From: Ignavibacteriaceae bacterium
GTDB lineage: Bacteria; Bacteroidota; Ignavibacteria; Ignavibacteriales; Ignavibacteriaceae
DNA: 43,935 nucleotides
Direction: 5' to 3'
Assembly: GCA_013360295.1 (NCBI GenBank)
Contig: JABWCL010000034.1
Coordinates: forward strand, 1-43,935
Part shown: piece by piece, positions 12,427 through 18,009 of the stretch
Layout of the letters: each line of letters starts with the position of its first letter
How positions within the stretch are numbered: position 1 is the first letter of the stretch
The notes under the pieces: generated by a model
What the model was told of the DNA's origin: nothing
The model's database searches: none
Seen by the model: the letters and a program-made list of their open reading frames with translations, nothing else
Position numbers and translations under genes: made by a program

Positions 12427-12478
12427 GCCCTTCCGGATTTCAGTTGATAAAAACAAGTTGAACGGAAGGGCATTTTTA
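12427..12478 (+). terminator. Rho-independent terminator after acyl-CoA dehydrogenase
   Basis: GCCCTTCCG (12427-12435) pairs perfectly with CGGAAGGGC (12463-12471) across a 27-base loop. A T-rich tail (ATTTTTATTTT) follows. It lies 11 bases after the stop codon. Confidence 0.8.
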
Positions 12479-12496: not shown

Positions 12497-12946
12497 ATGC
12501 GCTCTGACATAATTAAAATTGCAGGCTTAATGCTCATATTCTCTGCTCTTCTGTTTTCGCAGGAAAGAGAACGCTGGAAATCACCCGATAAATTATATCC
12601 GCTGATTCATATTGATAAGAAAGGCCCGGTCGGGTTTGATACAGAACGTCCTTTATCACTCCCTGTCAGCCTTTTTATTTTCTCTTACAGGCACATCATT
12701 TCCGAACACGACGGAGATAACTGTCCTTTTCACCCTTCCTGTTCCGAGTTTCTCCTTTCCGCCGTTAAATCTGAAGGATTAATAGAAGGCGGTTTAATAT
12801 TCTGGGACCGCTTTACCAGGGATGTTAATGTTTTTGGCAGAAGGGAAAAGTACACTGTCTATAACAACGGCAGGTATTATGACCCGCCTTGGTATTACTC
12901 ATCACGCAGGACTATCCTCAATTACGAGACTGAAAATGAGAAATAG
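12497..12946 (+). CDS. YidD-family protein (membrane insertion efficiency factor) with extra N-terminal hydrophobic segment
   Basis: 149 residues, longer than the usual 70-100 of YidD. The core at about 55-110 carries the family signature: SYRHIISEHDGDNCPFHPSCSEF (Cys76 and Cys82), then LSAVKSEGLIEGGLIFWDRFTRD. Canonical YidD is a small peripheral inner-membrane protein near the YidC insertase. This one starts with a hydrophobic stretch (IIKIAGLMLIFSALLFSQ) that looks like a signal peptide or anchor and has a Tyr-rich C-terminal tail. It may therefore act at or outside the inner membrane (inference). Its stop overlaps the next start by 11 bp. No rpmH, rnpA or yidC is nearby, unlike the typical yidD locus. 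Confidence 0.82.
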   Translation: MRSDIIKIAGLMLIFSALLFSQERERWKSPDKLYPLIHIDKKGPVGFDTERPLSLPVSLFIFSYRHIISEHDGDNCPFHPSCSEFLLSAVKSEGLIEGGLIFWDRFTRDVNVFGRREKYTVYNNGRYYDPPWYYSSRRTILNYETENEK

Positions 12947-13781
12947 ATTTTTTCTCTTGTTCCTTATTTTACTGAATTACGATTCTCTCTCACAGTCGCA
13001 GCTTCATTCCGCTGAGAACCGGGAGAAGTTTGCCTCATATCTTATCGCGGAAGGTGACTACCTCCGTGCAAGTGAAGAATATGATAAACTGTTTTCACTC
13101 ACTTCTGATACCGTTTATACTCTTAAGTCCGCCTCCTCACTGATCCGTCTTGGCAACTACCGGCAGGCAGCAGAGAAAACGAAGACACTTTATTCCGAAG
13201 TATATAACGCTGAAGCAAACATACTACACATCATCGCCCGATTGTATCTTGAAGAGGAACAAAAAGTTTATCCGATTCCTGAAGCAAACACAGAATACGC
13301 TGGTAATATTGAACTGCTGAAACTTTATGATAAAGCGCGCCGCAGCGGATTTAATGCAAATGAAACCGGGGCGCTTCTTTCTTACCCTCTTTTTACACAG
13401 GACGCTCGCTCAGATATCTCCGCAAAGTATTCCGGACTCCGGCAAATAAGTCCGGCATTTGCCGCTCTGCTCTCCGCGCTCGTACCGGGTTCGGGCAAGC
13501 TCTATACCGGCGATTATTCAGACGGCGTAACTGCTCTGCTTACAACCTCCCTATTCACCTACCTTACTGTGATAAACTTTAAGGCAGGACACGATATTCG
13601 CGGGTATATCTTCGGCGCTGCCGCCCTTGGCTTCTATGCCGGTAACGTTTATGGCTCATACGCCGCCGCACGGAACCGGAATCTTGAAGTGATTTATAAT
13701 TTTTCGCTTGAGATAGACGGGATTTTCAGGGCAAACTCATATTTTCTTAAGGGAAAAGCTCTGGATATTTATGCGGATTAA
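12936..13781 (+). CDS. Exported helical-repeat protein with PGSG membrane-hairpin domain, paralog 1
   Basis: 281 residues. I chose the ATG at 12936, which gives a clean signal peptide (MRNRFFLLFLILL..SLSQSQ) and an 11-bp overlap with the YidD-like gene. A reading frame open further upstream to 12822 has no such start. Residues about 25-170 are helical and TPR-like (AEGDYLRASEEYDKLF, RLGNYRQAAEKTK). From about 172 comes SPAFAALLSALVPGSGKLYTGDYSDG followed by hydrophobic helices, a pattern like TM2/DUF5683-type membrane hairpins. The neighbour downstream has the same architecture and the same PGSG-LY-G motif, so the two are probable paralogs from tandem duplication. The function is unknown. Confidence 0.75.
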   Translation: MRNRFFLLFLILLNYDSLSQSQLHSAENREKFASYLIAEGDYLRASEEYDKLFSLTSDTVYTLKSASSLIRLGNYRQAAEKTKTLYSEVYNAEANILHIIARLYLEEEQKVYPIPEANTEYAGNIELLKLYDKARRSGFNANETGALLSYPLFTQDARSDISAKYSGLRQISPAFAALLSALVPGSGKLYTGDYSDGVTALLTTSLFTYLTVINFKAGHDIRGYIFGAAALGFYAGNVYGSYAAARNRNLEVIYNFSLEIDGIFRANSYFLKGKALDIYAD

Positions 13782-14604
13782 AATTACAGTGATTGCTTTT
13801 CTGTTTATCAGCTCCTATTGTTTCCCTCAGCATTTCCTTGAGGAGCAATATCAGTATGCTAAAGGCTTATATCATACGGAGAATTATTTTGATGCCGTTA
13901 CAGAAGGAAAAAGGCTTCTATTCGCTGATACAGTGGGGAGCTATTCCTACCCCGGAAATATGCTTATCGCGTTTTCTTACAAAGGAGGCGGCAGGTTTGA
14001 AGATGCCCTGGCTTATTTTAACCTCGCCCGCAAATATTCATCCGGCAACCGGGATAGTTATATTGCCAGACTCGAGGCAGTAAAATGCCTGATCATTCTC
14101 CGGTCCCCTTCTGCCCTTACTCTGCTTCGCGGACTGGAAAAAGATCATCTGAGCGAATACGATCAGTACGGCACCCCGGCTTACTGGCGGGGATGGTACT
14201 GGCTTTTCCGCGGGGAACCCGGTTTCGCCCACGAAGATTTCGCAAAAACATCAGTGGGAAAATACCTTTCTGAGTTCTGCGACAGTATAAATAACGAAAA
14301 ATATTCAGTAAATTTTGGTCGTTCAATTTCTTACCTCGTGCCGGGGAGCGGACTGCTTTACTCAGGAGAGTATTACGGGGCTTTTATGTCCCTCCTGTGG
14401 AATGCTCTCGGCATATGGCTTACGGCTGATGCCTTGAACAGCGGCCGGACTCTTGACGGCGTTCTGCTAGCGAACTTCGTCTGGTTCCGTTTTTATTTCG
14501 GCGGAATCAACAACGCGCAGAAAGAAATAACGAATAAAAATAGTGAGTTGATCAATACAGCGATACAATATTTAGAAACCAATTACAAAGGCCTTAAACC
14601 TTGA
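13771..14604 (+). CDS. Exported helical-repeat protein with PGSG membrane-hairpin domain, paralog 2
   Basis: 277 residues with a signal peptide (MRIKITVIAFLFISSYCFPQ). A TPR-like region follows (AKGLYHTENYFDAVTEGKRLLF, GGGRFEDALAYFNLARKY). From about residue 185 comes a hydrophobic domain that opens SYLVPGSGLLYSGEYYGAFMSLLW. It mirrors the preceding gene in domain order, in the PGSG motif near two-thirds of the length and in the Asn/Arg-rich segment after the last helix. Its start overlaps the previous stop by 11 bp, the same overlap as between the first two genes, so the three are probably translated in a coupled way. I do not recognise a named family with certainty; it may be DUF5683-like. 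Confidence 0.75.
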   Translation: MRIKITVIAFLFISSYCFPQHFLEEQYQYAKGLYHTENYFDAVTEGKRLLFADTVGSYSYPGNMLIAFSYKGGGRFEDALAYFNLARKYSSGNRDSYIARLEAVKCLIILRSPSALTLLRGLEKDHLSEYDQYGTPAYWRGWYWLFRGEPGFAHEDFAKTSVGKYLSEFCDSINNEKYSVNFGRSISYLVPGSGLLYSGEYYGAFMSLLWNALGIWLTADALNSGRTLDGVLLANFVWFRFYFGGINNAQKEITNKNSELINTAIQYLETNYKGLKP

Positions 14605-15020
14605 AAACATCTGAAGACAGGATACGTGAACTCGCTCTGCAGGCGATAAATGAACTCGGAGAAAACGCGACTGAAGAAAAAGTACGGCAGCTCGTCGGGC
14701 AGAAGCTGGCTACCGAGGGCGTTTCTTCAAAGACCTCTGACCGCACCGGAACTCGTGTGATCCTTACCACCTTCGGCATTAATCAGCCTGGTGTTGTAAG
14801 TACAATTACCAGTAAACTGAGCGAATGCGGCTGCGACATACTTGATATTTCGCAGAAGATAATGCAGGAGTTCTATACGATGATAATGATGATCGACCTG
14901 ACTGGCTCCACGAAAGAACTAAAAGACCTGCAGGAAGAGATGAATACCATCGCCGCCGGACTGAACATTAAAATATTCCTTCAACACGAGGATGTATTCC
15001 GCTATATGCACCGCATTTAA
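14601..15020 (+). CDS. ACT domain protein (UPF0237-like)
   Basis: 139 residues. The C-terminal ~90 residues form an ACT fold (TRVILTTFGINQPGVVSTITSKLSECGCDILDISQKIMQEFYTMIMMIDL) close to the UPF0237 regulators. A helical N-terminal segment (about 1-45) resembles a lead-in domain. ACT domains usually bind small ligands such as amino acids. The start is TTG at 14601, overlapping the preceding TGA by 4 bp (TTGA), with AAAGG about ten bases upstream. UPF0237 and UPF0210 genes are often adjacent in bacteria and archaea, and the UPF0210 gene is next here, 13 bp on. Confidence 0.85.
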   Translation: MKTSEDRIRELALQAINELGENATEEKVRQLVGQKLATEGVSSKTSDRTGTRVILTTFGINQPGVVSTITSKLSECGCDILDISQKIMQEFYTMIMMIDLTGSTKELKDLQEEMNTIAAGLNIKIFLQHEDVFRYMHRI

Positions 15021-15033
15021 TAAAGGATAACAC

Positions 15034-16395
15034 GTGCCATACGAATTTGATGAAATCTTAGAAACGATTAAAATGACGGAGATCGAGCATTTCGATATCC
15101 GTACCGTAACAATGGGAATCAGCCTGCGGGACTGTACGGACAGGAACATCTCGGTTGTAACTCAAAAGATATACGATAAGATCACGAGATATGCTTCGCG
15201 ACATATTGAAAACGCGCAGAGCATCGAACGGCAGTTCGGAATTTCTATCGCGAACAAAAGAGTTTCCGTTACCCCGATTGCCATAATAGGCGATTCTTTC
15301 GGGATTGAGGAATTTGTCAGGATCGCCGAAGCCCTTGATAAAGCCGCTCTTACGGTCGGTATTGATTATATCGCCGGATATTCCGCGCTCGTTCAGAAAG
15401 GATTCACCTCCGGTGACGAATCGCTTATCCGGTCCATCCCCCTTGCTCTGTCTACCACGGCAAAGGTTTGTTCCAGTGTAAATATCGGCTCCACCAAAGC
15501 GGGAATAAATATTGACGCGGTTAACCTGATGTCTCAAATGATAAAAGAAACCGCGCGTCTGACCGCCGAACGGGATTCCATCGGCTGCGCCAAATTAGTT
15601 GTATTCTGCAATGCCGTAGAGGATAACCCCTTTGTTGCGGGCGCCTTCCACGGAATTACAGAACCGGAAGTTGTGCTTAACGTGGGCATAAGCGGCCCGG
15701 GTGTTGTACTCGACGCTGTTAAGTCGCTCGGCGGAGGAAATTTCCAGGAACTTGCGGAGGTAATAAAAAAGACTGTTTTTAAAATAACGCGCGCCGGAGA
15801 ACTCATCGGAAGGCGTGTTGCAGAAAAAAACAATATTCCTTTTGGTATCGTTGACATCTCTCTCGCCCCCACCCCTGCCGAAGGGGACAGTATAGCGGAT
15901 ATTCTCATCGCGATGGGAGTTGAGGATGTAGGCGGTCCCGGCACAACTGCGGCGCTGGCACTGCTTAATGACTGCGTAAAAAAAGCCGGGCTTATGGCAA
16001 GTTCCTCCGTCGGCGGAATGAGCGGCGCGTTCATTCCCGTTAGCGAAGACCAGGGAATGATCAGAGCTGTCGAACGAGGCAACTTAACCTTGGAGAAACT
16101 AGAAGCAATGACCTCGGTGTGCAGTGTGGGGCTTGATATGATTGCCGTCCCGGGCGATACCCCTGCCGAAACCATCGCCGGTATTATTGCAGATGAGGCC
16201 GCAATCGGAATCATTAACGATAAGACTACCGCTGTAAGGATAATCCCTGCATACGGGAAAAAAGTAGGTGAATCGGTTAATTACGGCGGTTTGCTCGGAC
16301 TCGCTCCTATTATGCCCGTGAAAAACATCTCCTGCGCAAAACTTTTATTAAGAGGAGGAAGAATCCCCGCCCCGACAAGGAGCCTGACTAATTGA
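15034..16395 (+). CDS. UPF0210 (DUF711, PFL-like) family protein
   Basis: 453 residues, the usual length for this highly conserved but biochemically undefined family. Recognisable segments are [11 protein letters not shown], the central [80 protein letters not shown] and the C-terminal [11 protein letters not shown]. The start is GTG at 15034, preceded by AAGGA with good spacing. The upstream ACT-domain gene is the expected partner and may sense a ligand that controls this protein (inference from gene pairing). It is cytoplasmic, with no signal or membrane segment. Confidence 0.92.
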
Positions 16396-16702: not shown

Positions 16703-17308
16703 ATGAAGAAAGGACTACTGATCGGTCTTGGCATCGTTGGTGTTCTGATAATTGTAGGGATAATGATTGTTTCCTGGCTAGTGGGGTCTTATAATAACCT
16801 TGTCACGATGAATGAAGAGGTGAATAAAAACTGGAGCCTGGTAGAAAACCAGTACCAACGGCGTGCCGACCTGATACCAAATCTCGTTAATACCGTAAAA
16901 GGCTATGCAAACTTTGAGCAAAAAGTACTGACTGACGTTACGGAAGCAAGAGCAAGTGTAGGCTCGATTAAAGCCACACCGGAACTTATTAATGACGCGG
17001 CGGCCTTCCAGAAATTCCAGAACGCGCAGGCAAATTTAAGCGGCGCTCTTTCAAGGCTGCTCCTCACCGTGGAAAATTACCCTGACCTTAAGGCAAACGA
17101 AAACTTCCTTCAGCTTCAGGCACAACTCGAAGGAACAGAAAACAGGATTACCGTGGCAAGGAATAATTTTAATGAATCAGTTAATACCTACAACGCCACA
17201 ATCAAACGCTTCCCCGCGGTTGTAATTGCGGGCATTTTTGGCTTCCACGAAAAACAGTATTTCCAGGCAGCCGCGGGCGCGGAAAACGCCCCTAAAGTTG
17301 AGTTTTAA
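16703..17308 (+). CDS. lemA: LemA family protein
   Basis: 201 residues. One N-terminal membrane anchor (about 4-28, LLIGLGIVGVLIIVGIMIVSW) is followed by an all-helical domain. The LemA signature is VEKNW-like here (EVNKNWSLVENQYQRRADLIPNLVNTVKGYA), with ENRITVARNNFNESVNTYNATIKRFP at about 145-170. The cellular role of the family is poorly defined. The gene pairs with a TPM-domain gene downstream, as is common in Bacteroidetes and Proteobacteria. Its TAA shares one base with the next ATG (TAATG), implying translational coupling. AGGAG seven bases upstream supports the start. Confidence 0.95.
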   Translation: MKKGLLIGLGIVGVLIIVGIMIVSWLVGSYNNLVTMNEEVNKNWSLVENQYQRRADLIPNLVNTVKGYANFEQKVLTDVTEARASVGSIKATPELINDAAAFQKFQNAQANLSGALSRLLLTVENYPDLKANENFLQLQAQLEGTENRITVARNNFNESVNTYNATIKRFPAVVIAGIFGFHEKQYFQAAAGAENAPKVEF

Positions 17309-18009
17309 TGTTTAGACTTTTATTGTGCAGTCTGCTCATTTTATGGGCAGAACTGCACGCTGTTCCGCAGGTTCCGAAGCTAAAACTTTGGGCCACAGAC
17401 CTGACCGGCACACTCTCTTCATCGGAGCTTGATTACCTCAACAGCAGGCTGAAAACCTTTCAGGACTCAACCTCGAACCAGCTTGTCTTTCTTATGATCC
17501 CCTCTCTCGAAGGTGACGCACTGGAAGATTACACTTACCGCGTGGCAAAAGAAAACCTGGTCGGCGATAAAGACCGGGATAACGGAGTACTTCTTTTTGT
17601 TTCCAAGGAAGAAAGGAAAATAAGGATTGAGGTCGGTTACGGCCTTGAAGGCGCACTCCCCGACGCTACTTCGAGCTACATTATCAGAAAAGAGATCGTA
17701 CCGTTATTTAAAACCGACAACTATTTCCAGGGAATTGTCTCAGGCCTTGACGCAATAATGAAAGCTACTGCCGGTGAGTACAAGGCAATGGAGAAGAAAA
17801 AGAAAGGGAGCAGCGGTTTAGGCAAGTTTGTGCCGATACTTTTGATGATAATTTTCGGTTTCCTTTCCAGGCGCCGCCGTCGTAGTGTTTTCTTCGGAGG
17901 AGGCCCACGTATCGGAGGTTTCCCCGGCGGTTTTGGCGGAGGCGGTTTTGGCGGCTTCTCCGGAGGCGGCGGTTCTTTCGGCGGAGGCGGCGCAAGCGGC
18001 AGTTGGTGA
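17308..18009 (+). CDS. TPM domain protein (YgcG/Psb32-like), Gly-rich C-terminus
   Basis: 233 residues. Parts in order: signal peptide (about 1-19), TPM domain (about 28-155; DLTGTLSSSELDYLNSRLKTF, then DNGVLLFVSKEERKIRIEVGYGLEGALPD), a Lys-rich linker, a membrane helix (about 173-188, FVPILLMIIFGFL), an Arg-rich stop-transfer (RRRRR) and a Gly/Phe/Ser tail ending in GASGSW. This matches the membrane-anchored TPM proteins that follow lemA in many genomes. TPM domains have been linked to phosphatase activity and to photosystem repair in plants; no function can be assigned here. The ATG overlaps the lemA stop by one base. Confidence 0.93.
   Translation: MFRLLLCSLLILWAELHAVPQVPKLKLWATDLTGTLSSSELDYLNSRLKTFQDSTSNQLVFLMIPSLEGDALEDYTYRVAKENLVGDKDRDNGVLLFVSKEERKIRIEVGYGLEGALPDATSSYIIRKEIVPLFKTDNYFQGIVSGLDAIMKATAGEYKAMEKKKKGSSGLGKFVPILLMIIFGFLSRRRRRSVFFGGGPRIGGFPGGFGGGGFGGFSGGGGSFGGGGASGSW

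Follow-up and report, generated by a model that had tools for sequence, protein, structure and literature searches.

The whole stretch of DNA analysed here (the window; 43,935 nucleotides, contig JABWCL010000034.1 of assembly GCA_013360295.1 from an Ignavibacteriaceae bacterium) contains three consecutive genes, here named Y, A, and B, which very probably form one functional unit of the cell envelope. Y encodes a protein of the YidD family with a predicted export signal, and A and B encode paralogous proteins (hhalign 99.7%, E 2.7e-26) with a predicted signal peptide, a tetratricopeptide repeat (TPR) domain, and a hairpin around a PGSG motif. Support for one functional unit comes from the recurrence of Y with such a partner outside the order Ignavibacteriales, from three natural fusions of Y with A, and from the joint loss of the genes within the order. 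What appears to be new here, judging from the sequences, is a YidD-domain protein that has been relocated and paired with undescribed partners. No description of the Y-A-B unit was found among the open-access papers listed in the literature searches.

The coordinates confirm Y, A, and B as consecutive open reading frames (ORFs) on the + strand with an overlap of 11 bp at each joint; these overlaps, and the paralogy of A and B, had been claimed in a preliminary description of this DNA made from its letters, and both hold. The open frame of A extends 5' to 12822 in the mechanical ORF list, and the ATG at 12936 is used here. The features of the three genes are:

12497..12946, + strand: gene Y, YidD-domain protein of 149 amino acids, predicted exported (ORF; Pfam YidD; TIGR00278)
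12497..12559, + strand: predicted signal peptide of Y, residues 1-21, with putative cleavage before Q22
12671..12820, + strand: YidD domain of Y, with conserved C76, F78, P80, C82, S83, R105, and R108
12936..13781, + strand: gene A, 281 amino acids from the ATG at 12936, with signal peptide, TPR-like domain, and PGSG hairpin
13446..13670, + strand: hairpin region of A, with PGSG motif and invariant P184, G185, and G187 (alignment, hydropathy)
13771..14604, + strand: gene B, 277 amino acids, paralog of A, overlapping A by 11 bp
13828..14301, + strand: TPR domain of B, residues 20-177 (AlphaFold2 model; alignments to solved TPR chains)
14308..14520, + strand: hairpin region of B, with PGSG motif, residues 180-250 (alignment, model helices)

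Recurrence outside the order and joint loss within it

Relatives were sought in a phylum sample of 296 genomes and a class sample of 294 genomes (59 from the order, 235 from outside it), in which genomes and loci carry G and L numbers. In the phylum sample, the exported type of Y is nearly confined to the order, beyond which G180, G160, and G156 stood out. The class sample was searched with a wider Y profile and matches at E<1e-15 were taken, by which an exported Y is present in at least 10 of the 235 genomes outside the order. At all ten of these matches, a TPR-hairpin partner adjoins Y or is fused to it, in the following genomes and arrangements:

Genomes outside the order with an exported Y: G160, G180, G263, G400, G156, G465, G347, G420, G477, G361
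Y-A-B outside the order: L136, L137, L195, L194
Y with one partner outside the order: L155, L196, L197
Fused Y-A outside the order: L138, L199, L198

This recurrence is stronger evidence than the adjacency of the genes inside the order, because there the neighbouring genes are conserved too. Since an A-type partner is present in every complete locus and has also been fused to Y, A is the likeliest direct contact of Y. A search for B elsewhere in G156 and G263, two of the six genomes whose loci have no adjacent B, gave only weak or TPR-type matches apart from the locus itself. The partner in L197 is short (251 amino acids) and may be incomplete. Plasmid-borne relatives were also considered and rejected, as tblastn of a fusion protein returned 19 plasmid records, all in the YidD part and none covering 80% of the query.

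Within the order, the sample comprises 59 genomes, namely that of the window and 58 relatives, and Y is present in 56 of them, the window's own included. The complete Y-A-B tandem is found in 51 of the 55 other loci, which rules out a chance adjacency of the three genes. Two of the remaining loci, L087 (G010) and L099 (G036), run into the end of their contig after Y and the beginning of A, and the other two, L080 (G024) and L094 (G012), have no A or B beside Y. The preliminary description had held that scattering of the genes in relatives would count against a joint system; such separation is confined to these last two loci, and both genomes keep all three genes, with A and B together on another contig in G012 and with Y, A, and B at three separate places in G024. 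A contaminant origin of the G024 locus, which has a high GC content, was ruled out by the similar values of its Y, A, and B (61.5%, 64.8%, and 62.4%) and by the position of its B before ACT, UPF0210, and LemA genes, as in the window. The genes of the tandem are also closely spaced: of the 52 units, the window's among them, 34 have overlapping Y and A and 50 have these two genes within 40 bp of each other, and for A and B the corresponding counts are 38 and 52, with start codons picked by a simple rule.

The three genes are also absent together. B is strong (E below 1e-86) in 55 of the 59 genomes of the order, and those without a strong B are G010, which is 81% complete and whose contig ends inside A, together with G016, G020, and G027, exactly the three genomes without Y. 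The best A matches in these three reach E values of 2.9e-6 to 3.5e-7, compared with 5.8e-72 in G012 and 4.4e-54 in G024, and in none of the 59 genomes does Y or A occur without the other. Where the unit would be expected, G020 and G016 have empty sites, with the acyl-CoA dehydrogenase gene and LemA separated by 41 bp in G020 and by about 0.35 kb in G016, and in G027 LemA does not adjoin that acyl-CoA dehydrogenase gene; tblastn of Y, A, and B against these stretches of the three genomes gave no match. In a tree of 45 LemA sequences (a single gene, rooted at the midpoint), G027 is placed with the lineage of the window (support 0.90) and G016 together with G020 in a different clade (0.81), thus the unit was probably lost at least twice. 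Each of the three genomes keeps one YidD match, judged canonical by score. In addition, G527, a genome of the order, has a second, divergent Y-A-B unit at L200, within the five-gene cassette described below, which suggests transfer between lineages.

Domains and predicted export signals of Y, A, and B

Canonical YidD is a small protein encoded behind rnpA and found at the cytoplasmic face of the membrane, and its mechanism is little understood. Passages of two papers describe YidD as an insertion efficiency factor assisting YidC and cite Yu et al. 2011 for tests by transport and cross-linking (PMC8082313, PMC3573977). Y belongs to this family by its matches to Pfam YidD (PF01809; 41 bits, cut-off 27, residues 59-108) and to TIGR00278 of NCBIfam (48 bits, cut-off 40), and all 33 aligned Y relatives match the family at E<=0.01. 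The genome of the window keeps an ordinary YidD gene of 75 amino acids directly behind rnpA, and Y lies elsewhere, thus Y is an extra copy, in agreement with the earlier claim that it stands away from rnpA and yidC. Two YidD matches are found in 26 of the 28 genomes of the order in the phylum sample. YidD is widespread among bacteria, with matches in 10 of 14 control genomes, and the YidD loci with long open frames in L156-L161 look canonical on inspection. L140, L154, and L162 served for base counts only. No sequence match to Y or to canonical YidD was found among solved structures.

Residues of Y were counted in the 52 tandem rows of the order, among them the window's, and in 13 other rows, which comprise the ten loci outside the order and L080, L094, and L200 from genomes of the order. 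The C-x-F-x-P-x-C-S core of YidD is kept, with C76 and C82 in 52 of 52 tandem rows and 13 of 13 others, and R105 and R108 are likewise present in all 65. D104, absent from the four canonical YidD sequences compared, is found in 64 of the 65 rows. The position of the third canonical cysteine (R-C-x-P) is D in all 52 tandem rows, and in the 13 others it is C in seven, E in three, and D in three.

Y, A, and B all start with a predicted signal of the same type. The hydrophobic stretch at the N terminus exceeds the script threshold in 52 (Y), 49 (A), and 52 (B) of the 52 units, and a Q follows the signal peptide at one alignment column in 28 of 33 rows of Y, 30 of 32 of A, and 30 of 32 of B, preceded mostly by A, S, P, C, or G; in the window's own Y, the Q stands one column further on than that of the alignment. 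A Q after a hydrophobic N terminus in all three proteins fits the Q-rule of Bacteroidetes for signal peptidase I, for which a passage of one study gives a Q-value of 77% in Ignavibacterium album (PMC5837995). The N-terminal hydrophobic segment of Y noted in the preliminary description is indeed present, but it looks like a cleaved signal peptide and not like an anchor, and we infer that Y is cleaved and that its mature form is periplasmic.

The N-terminal part of A is TPR-like by profile, and that of B is a TPR domain in an AlphaFold2 model (predicted local distance difference test, pLDDT, 93.3) whose TPR helices run up to residue 177. Beyond them the model has helices at residues 180-189 and 193-197 around the PGSG motif, at 201-223 (23 residues), and at 227-271 (45 residues). 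Residues 17-177 of B align to solved TPR chains at 7-16% identity, with a best Z of 16.3 over residues 17-169, and these matches are generic. Foldseek with B gave nothing at E<=0.001, and the C-terminal part of B was barely covered in second-look alignments.

The alignments place a PGSG hairpin close to the C terminus of both A and B. The median peak hydropathy of its two helices (19-residue window) is 1.30 and 1.01 in A and 1.13 and 0.58 in B; of 52 proteins each, three A and four B have a first helix that reaches at least 1.6, and none has such a second helix. Among the controls, the strongest peaks of four YidC proteins are 2.27-2.61, and the values are 3.12 for LemA and 1.84 for TPM. The earlier account of A and B as signal-peptide, TPR-like, membrane-hairpin proteins is thus borne out for the predicted signal peptide, the TPR part, and the PGSG hairpin, but these hairpins are weakly hydrophobic.

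The possibility that the two downstream proteins belong to a characterised family was also raised at the outset, and the window's A and B pass no cut-off in Pfam or NCBIfam; beyond generic TPR, the nearest families are, weakly, DUF5683 and TM2. A match to DUF5683 (PF18935) spans about 24 residues of the window's A and scores 13.5 bits (cut-off 26.7), and for B there is none at E<=1. Of 32 members each, 14 of the A type and 10 of the B type match DUF5683 at E<=0.01, with best E values of 1.2e-4 (A) and 4.2e-5 (B). At the same threshold, TM2 (PF05154) is matched by six A members and one B member of the 32 each, and by neither A nor B of the window at E<=1. The same genome also encodes another PG-hairpin protein at L204 (G000:C34:30699-30833), in a 277-residue frame with a signal-peptide-like start and no TPR part seen by eye.

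Genes around the unit

In the window, a stem-loop lies in the gap upstream of Y:

12427..12471, + strand: stem-loop with T-rich tail between the acyl-CoA dehydrogenase gene and Y (inverted repeat; RNA fold)

It folds with -20.6 kcal/mol (z -2.89), and it may be a terminator of the acyl-CoA dehydrogenase transcript or a regulator of Y. It ends about 25 bp 5' of the start of Y, leaving little space for a promoter. Promoter and terminator scans found nothing above shuffles, the stem-loop itself exceeding the loop limit of the terminator scan. Downstream, an ACT-domain gene overlaps B by 4 bp and is followed by a UPF0210 gene (14601-16395), and LemA and TPM-domain genes form a further pair (16703-18009). 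In the relatives, LemA is directly behind B in 14 of 51 units and present in 40 of the 51 fetched unit loci, and 18 of 51 have no ACT gene immediately after B, with Y-A-B still whole. A defence function of the unit was considered and set aside, PADLOC giving no match for Y, A, or B.

Elsewhere, the gene directly before the unit is of two other kinds. A gene for a PEGA-domain protein directly precedes Y or the Y-A fusion in L138, L198, and L199, where it is over the Pfam cut-off, and in L197 (20.5 bits, cut-off 20.8), and a gene for an unclassified exported protein of 230-249 amino acids directly precedes Y in L136, L137, L195, and L200:

PEGA-type gene: L138:3654-4124, L199:2392-2874, L198:1980-2537, L197:3716-4237
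Gene of the 230-249-amino-acid companion: L136:2009-2746, L137:4763-5464, L195:2424-3173, L200:2194-2886

The PEGA-type proteins are lipoprotein-like, share a C-terminal motif, and come from three families. The gene of the 230-249-amino-acid companion is itself preceded by a gene for a small protein (130-137 amino acids, with a shared G-K-x(3)-Y motif), giving a five-gene cassette, likewise in three families. This companion is found in 4 of 27 genomes tested and not in that of the window. It was rejected as a LolA-like component of the unit, as one of the four matches LolA (E 0.057, below the cut-off) and the other three have no match.

Possible roles of the unit and comparison with known systems

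What the unit does can be proposed with far less confidence than its existence. Our tentative suggestion, which we would put at somewhat under an even chance, is that Y assists the hairpins of A and B in taking their place in the membrane, or does so together with A and B for other envelope proteins. Y, A, and B would leave the cytoplasm through Sec and be processed by signal peptidase I, which would leave the mature Y of about 128 residues on the periplasmic side, opposite the face at which ordinary YidD is found. A and B would each have a periplasmic TPR domain and a weakly hydrophobic helix-PGxG-helix hairpin in a membrane. These hairpins would be too weak to stop in the Sec channel, would pass on to the periplasm, and would then need help in settling in the membrane; Y would work directly on A and seat the hairpins of A and B from the periplasmic side. 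We infer the membrane seat of the hairpins, a physical contact of Y with its partners, and the role in insertion from the features described above. It is rather doubtful, though conceivable, that the unit is more generally a trans-side module, in which an exported YidD and two TPR-hairpin partners would place weak hairpins, their own or those of other proteins, into the inner or outer membrane after these have crossed the inner membrane. To our knowledge, such a route for inserting membrane proteins from the periplasmic face has no described counterpart.

Several observations weigh against the proposals made here. Among the matches listed, 225 of the 235 class genomes outside the order are without such a Y, and six of the ten loci outside the order have no B next to Y. 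One of these ten, L194, comes from a genome (G361) that is 6% contaminated, and its unit, still counted, may derive from a contig of the order. G263 was first found through a partner search, and the Y rows of G160, G180, and G263 are part of the profile, which biases the search towards genomes related to them, for instance G400 and G477. Inside the order, the acyl-CoA dehydrogenase gene immediately precedes 46 of 51 units (39 by script and seven abutting or overlapping) and ACT lies directly behind B in 33 of 51, and because of these conserved surroundings the adjacency of Y, A, and B there says little on its own. The model of the Y-A fusion, built from the three fusions and 21 A-type rows, is weak (pLDDT 74.7) and has no readable Y-A interface. 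As for the hairpins, YidC proteins also have weaker peaks of about 1.5-1.8, and a few hairpins of A and B do reach 1.6 or more; the ordinary insertion of these hairpins by Sec is conceivable, and a helper would then be unneeded. Moreover, the replacement of the third canonical cysteine in all 52 tandem rows may mean that Y has an activity differing from that of YidD.

Among other explanations, a role as a structural scaffold without insertion is nearly as likely as the insertion role, if by itself on the unlikely side: Y, A, and B would form a stable assembly in the periplasm and membrane, with Y as a structural component and with lipoproteins or outer-membrane proteins bound by the TPR domains. 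Docking is a typical function of such domains, that of B aligns with BamD (Z 14.3) and YbgF (Z 14.5), and envelope genes stand directly before the unit elsewhere, namely the PEGA genes of L138, L198, L199, and L197 and those of the exported companion in L136, L137, L195, and L200. However, the TPR matches are generic, and the companion is LolA-like in one member only, below the cut-off, and is found in four of the 27 genomes tested, that of the window not among them. That Y is held by an N-terminal anchor with its YidD domain in the cytoplasm, as in ordinary YidD, would be compatible with a cleavage judged from sequence only, but it seems improbable given the short hydrophobic stretch followed by mostly A or S and then Q, in a group with a strong Q-rule, and given the same signal type in A and B.

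Plain synteny, in which the three genes are kept side by side by a slowly evolving region and do no joint work, would agree with the wide conservation of the flanking acyl-CoA dehydrogenase, ACT, UPF0210, LemA, and TPM genes. However, Y occurs with an A-type partner in other surroundings at all ten loci outside the order (E<1e-15), three times as a fusion, and all three genes are kept when scattered (G012, G024) and are lost together, probably more than once, which makes this explanation very unlikely. It is more unlikely still that Y modifies or disturbs membranes, as a 'haemolytic domain', with A and B restraining or directing it. A passage on YidD notes that relatives of it were formerly named for haemolysis or cell lysis (PMC3573977), but the unit stands in 56 of the 59 genomes of the order, among conserved ordinary genes and with no PADLOC match.

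A YidD domain has seemingly been moved across the membrane and given fixed partners, and even fused to one of them in nature. This offers a handle on the role of the YidD fold, with a named partner, fusion proteins to study, and genomes that have cleanly lost the unit to compare with. Should insertion be its true role, the unit would be a helper for membrane insertion from the periplasm.

Compared with canonical YidD (PF01809, TIGR00278), Y has in common Y64, S69, C76, F/Y78, P80, C82, S83, G98, R105, R108, and P130, but unlike it Y has a predicted signal peptide, extra residues before D-P, D104, and a D in place of the third cysteine; its gene is not beside rnpA and is present in addition to the canonical yidD. 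The hairpin domains of DUF5683 and TM2 resemble those of A and B in having a PG-turn between short hydrophobic helices, a distant likeness, whereas A and B differ from both in their large N-terminal TPR domain. The TPR part of B, a superhelix of about 150 residues, aligns with BamD (3qky; Z 14.3, identity 11%) and with YbgF (2xev; Z 14.5, identity 16%). Unlike BamD and YbgF, however, B has no lipobox Cys, a Q after its signal peptide, and a C-terminal hairpin.

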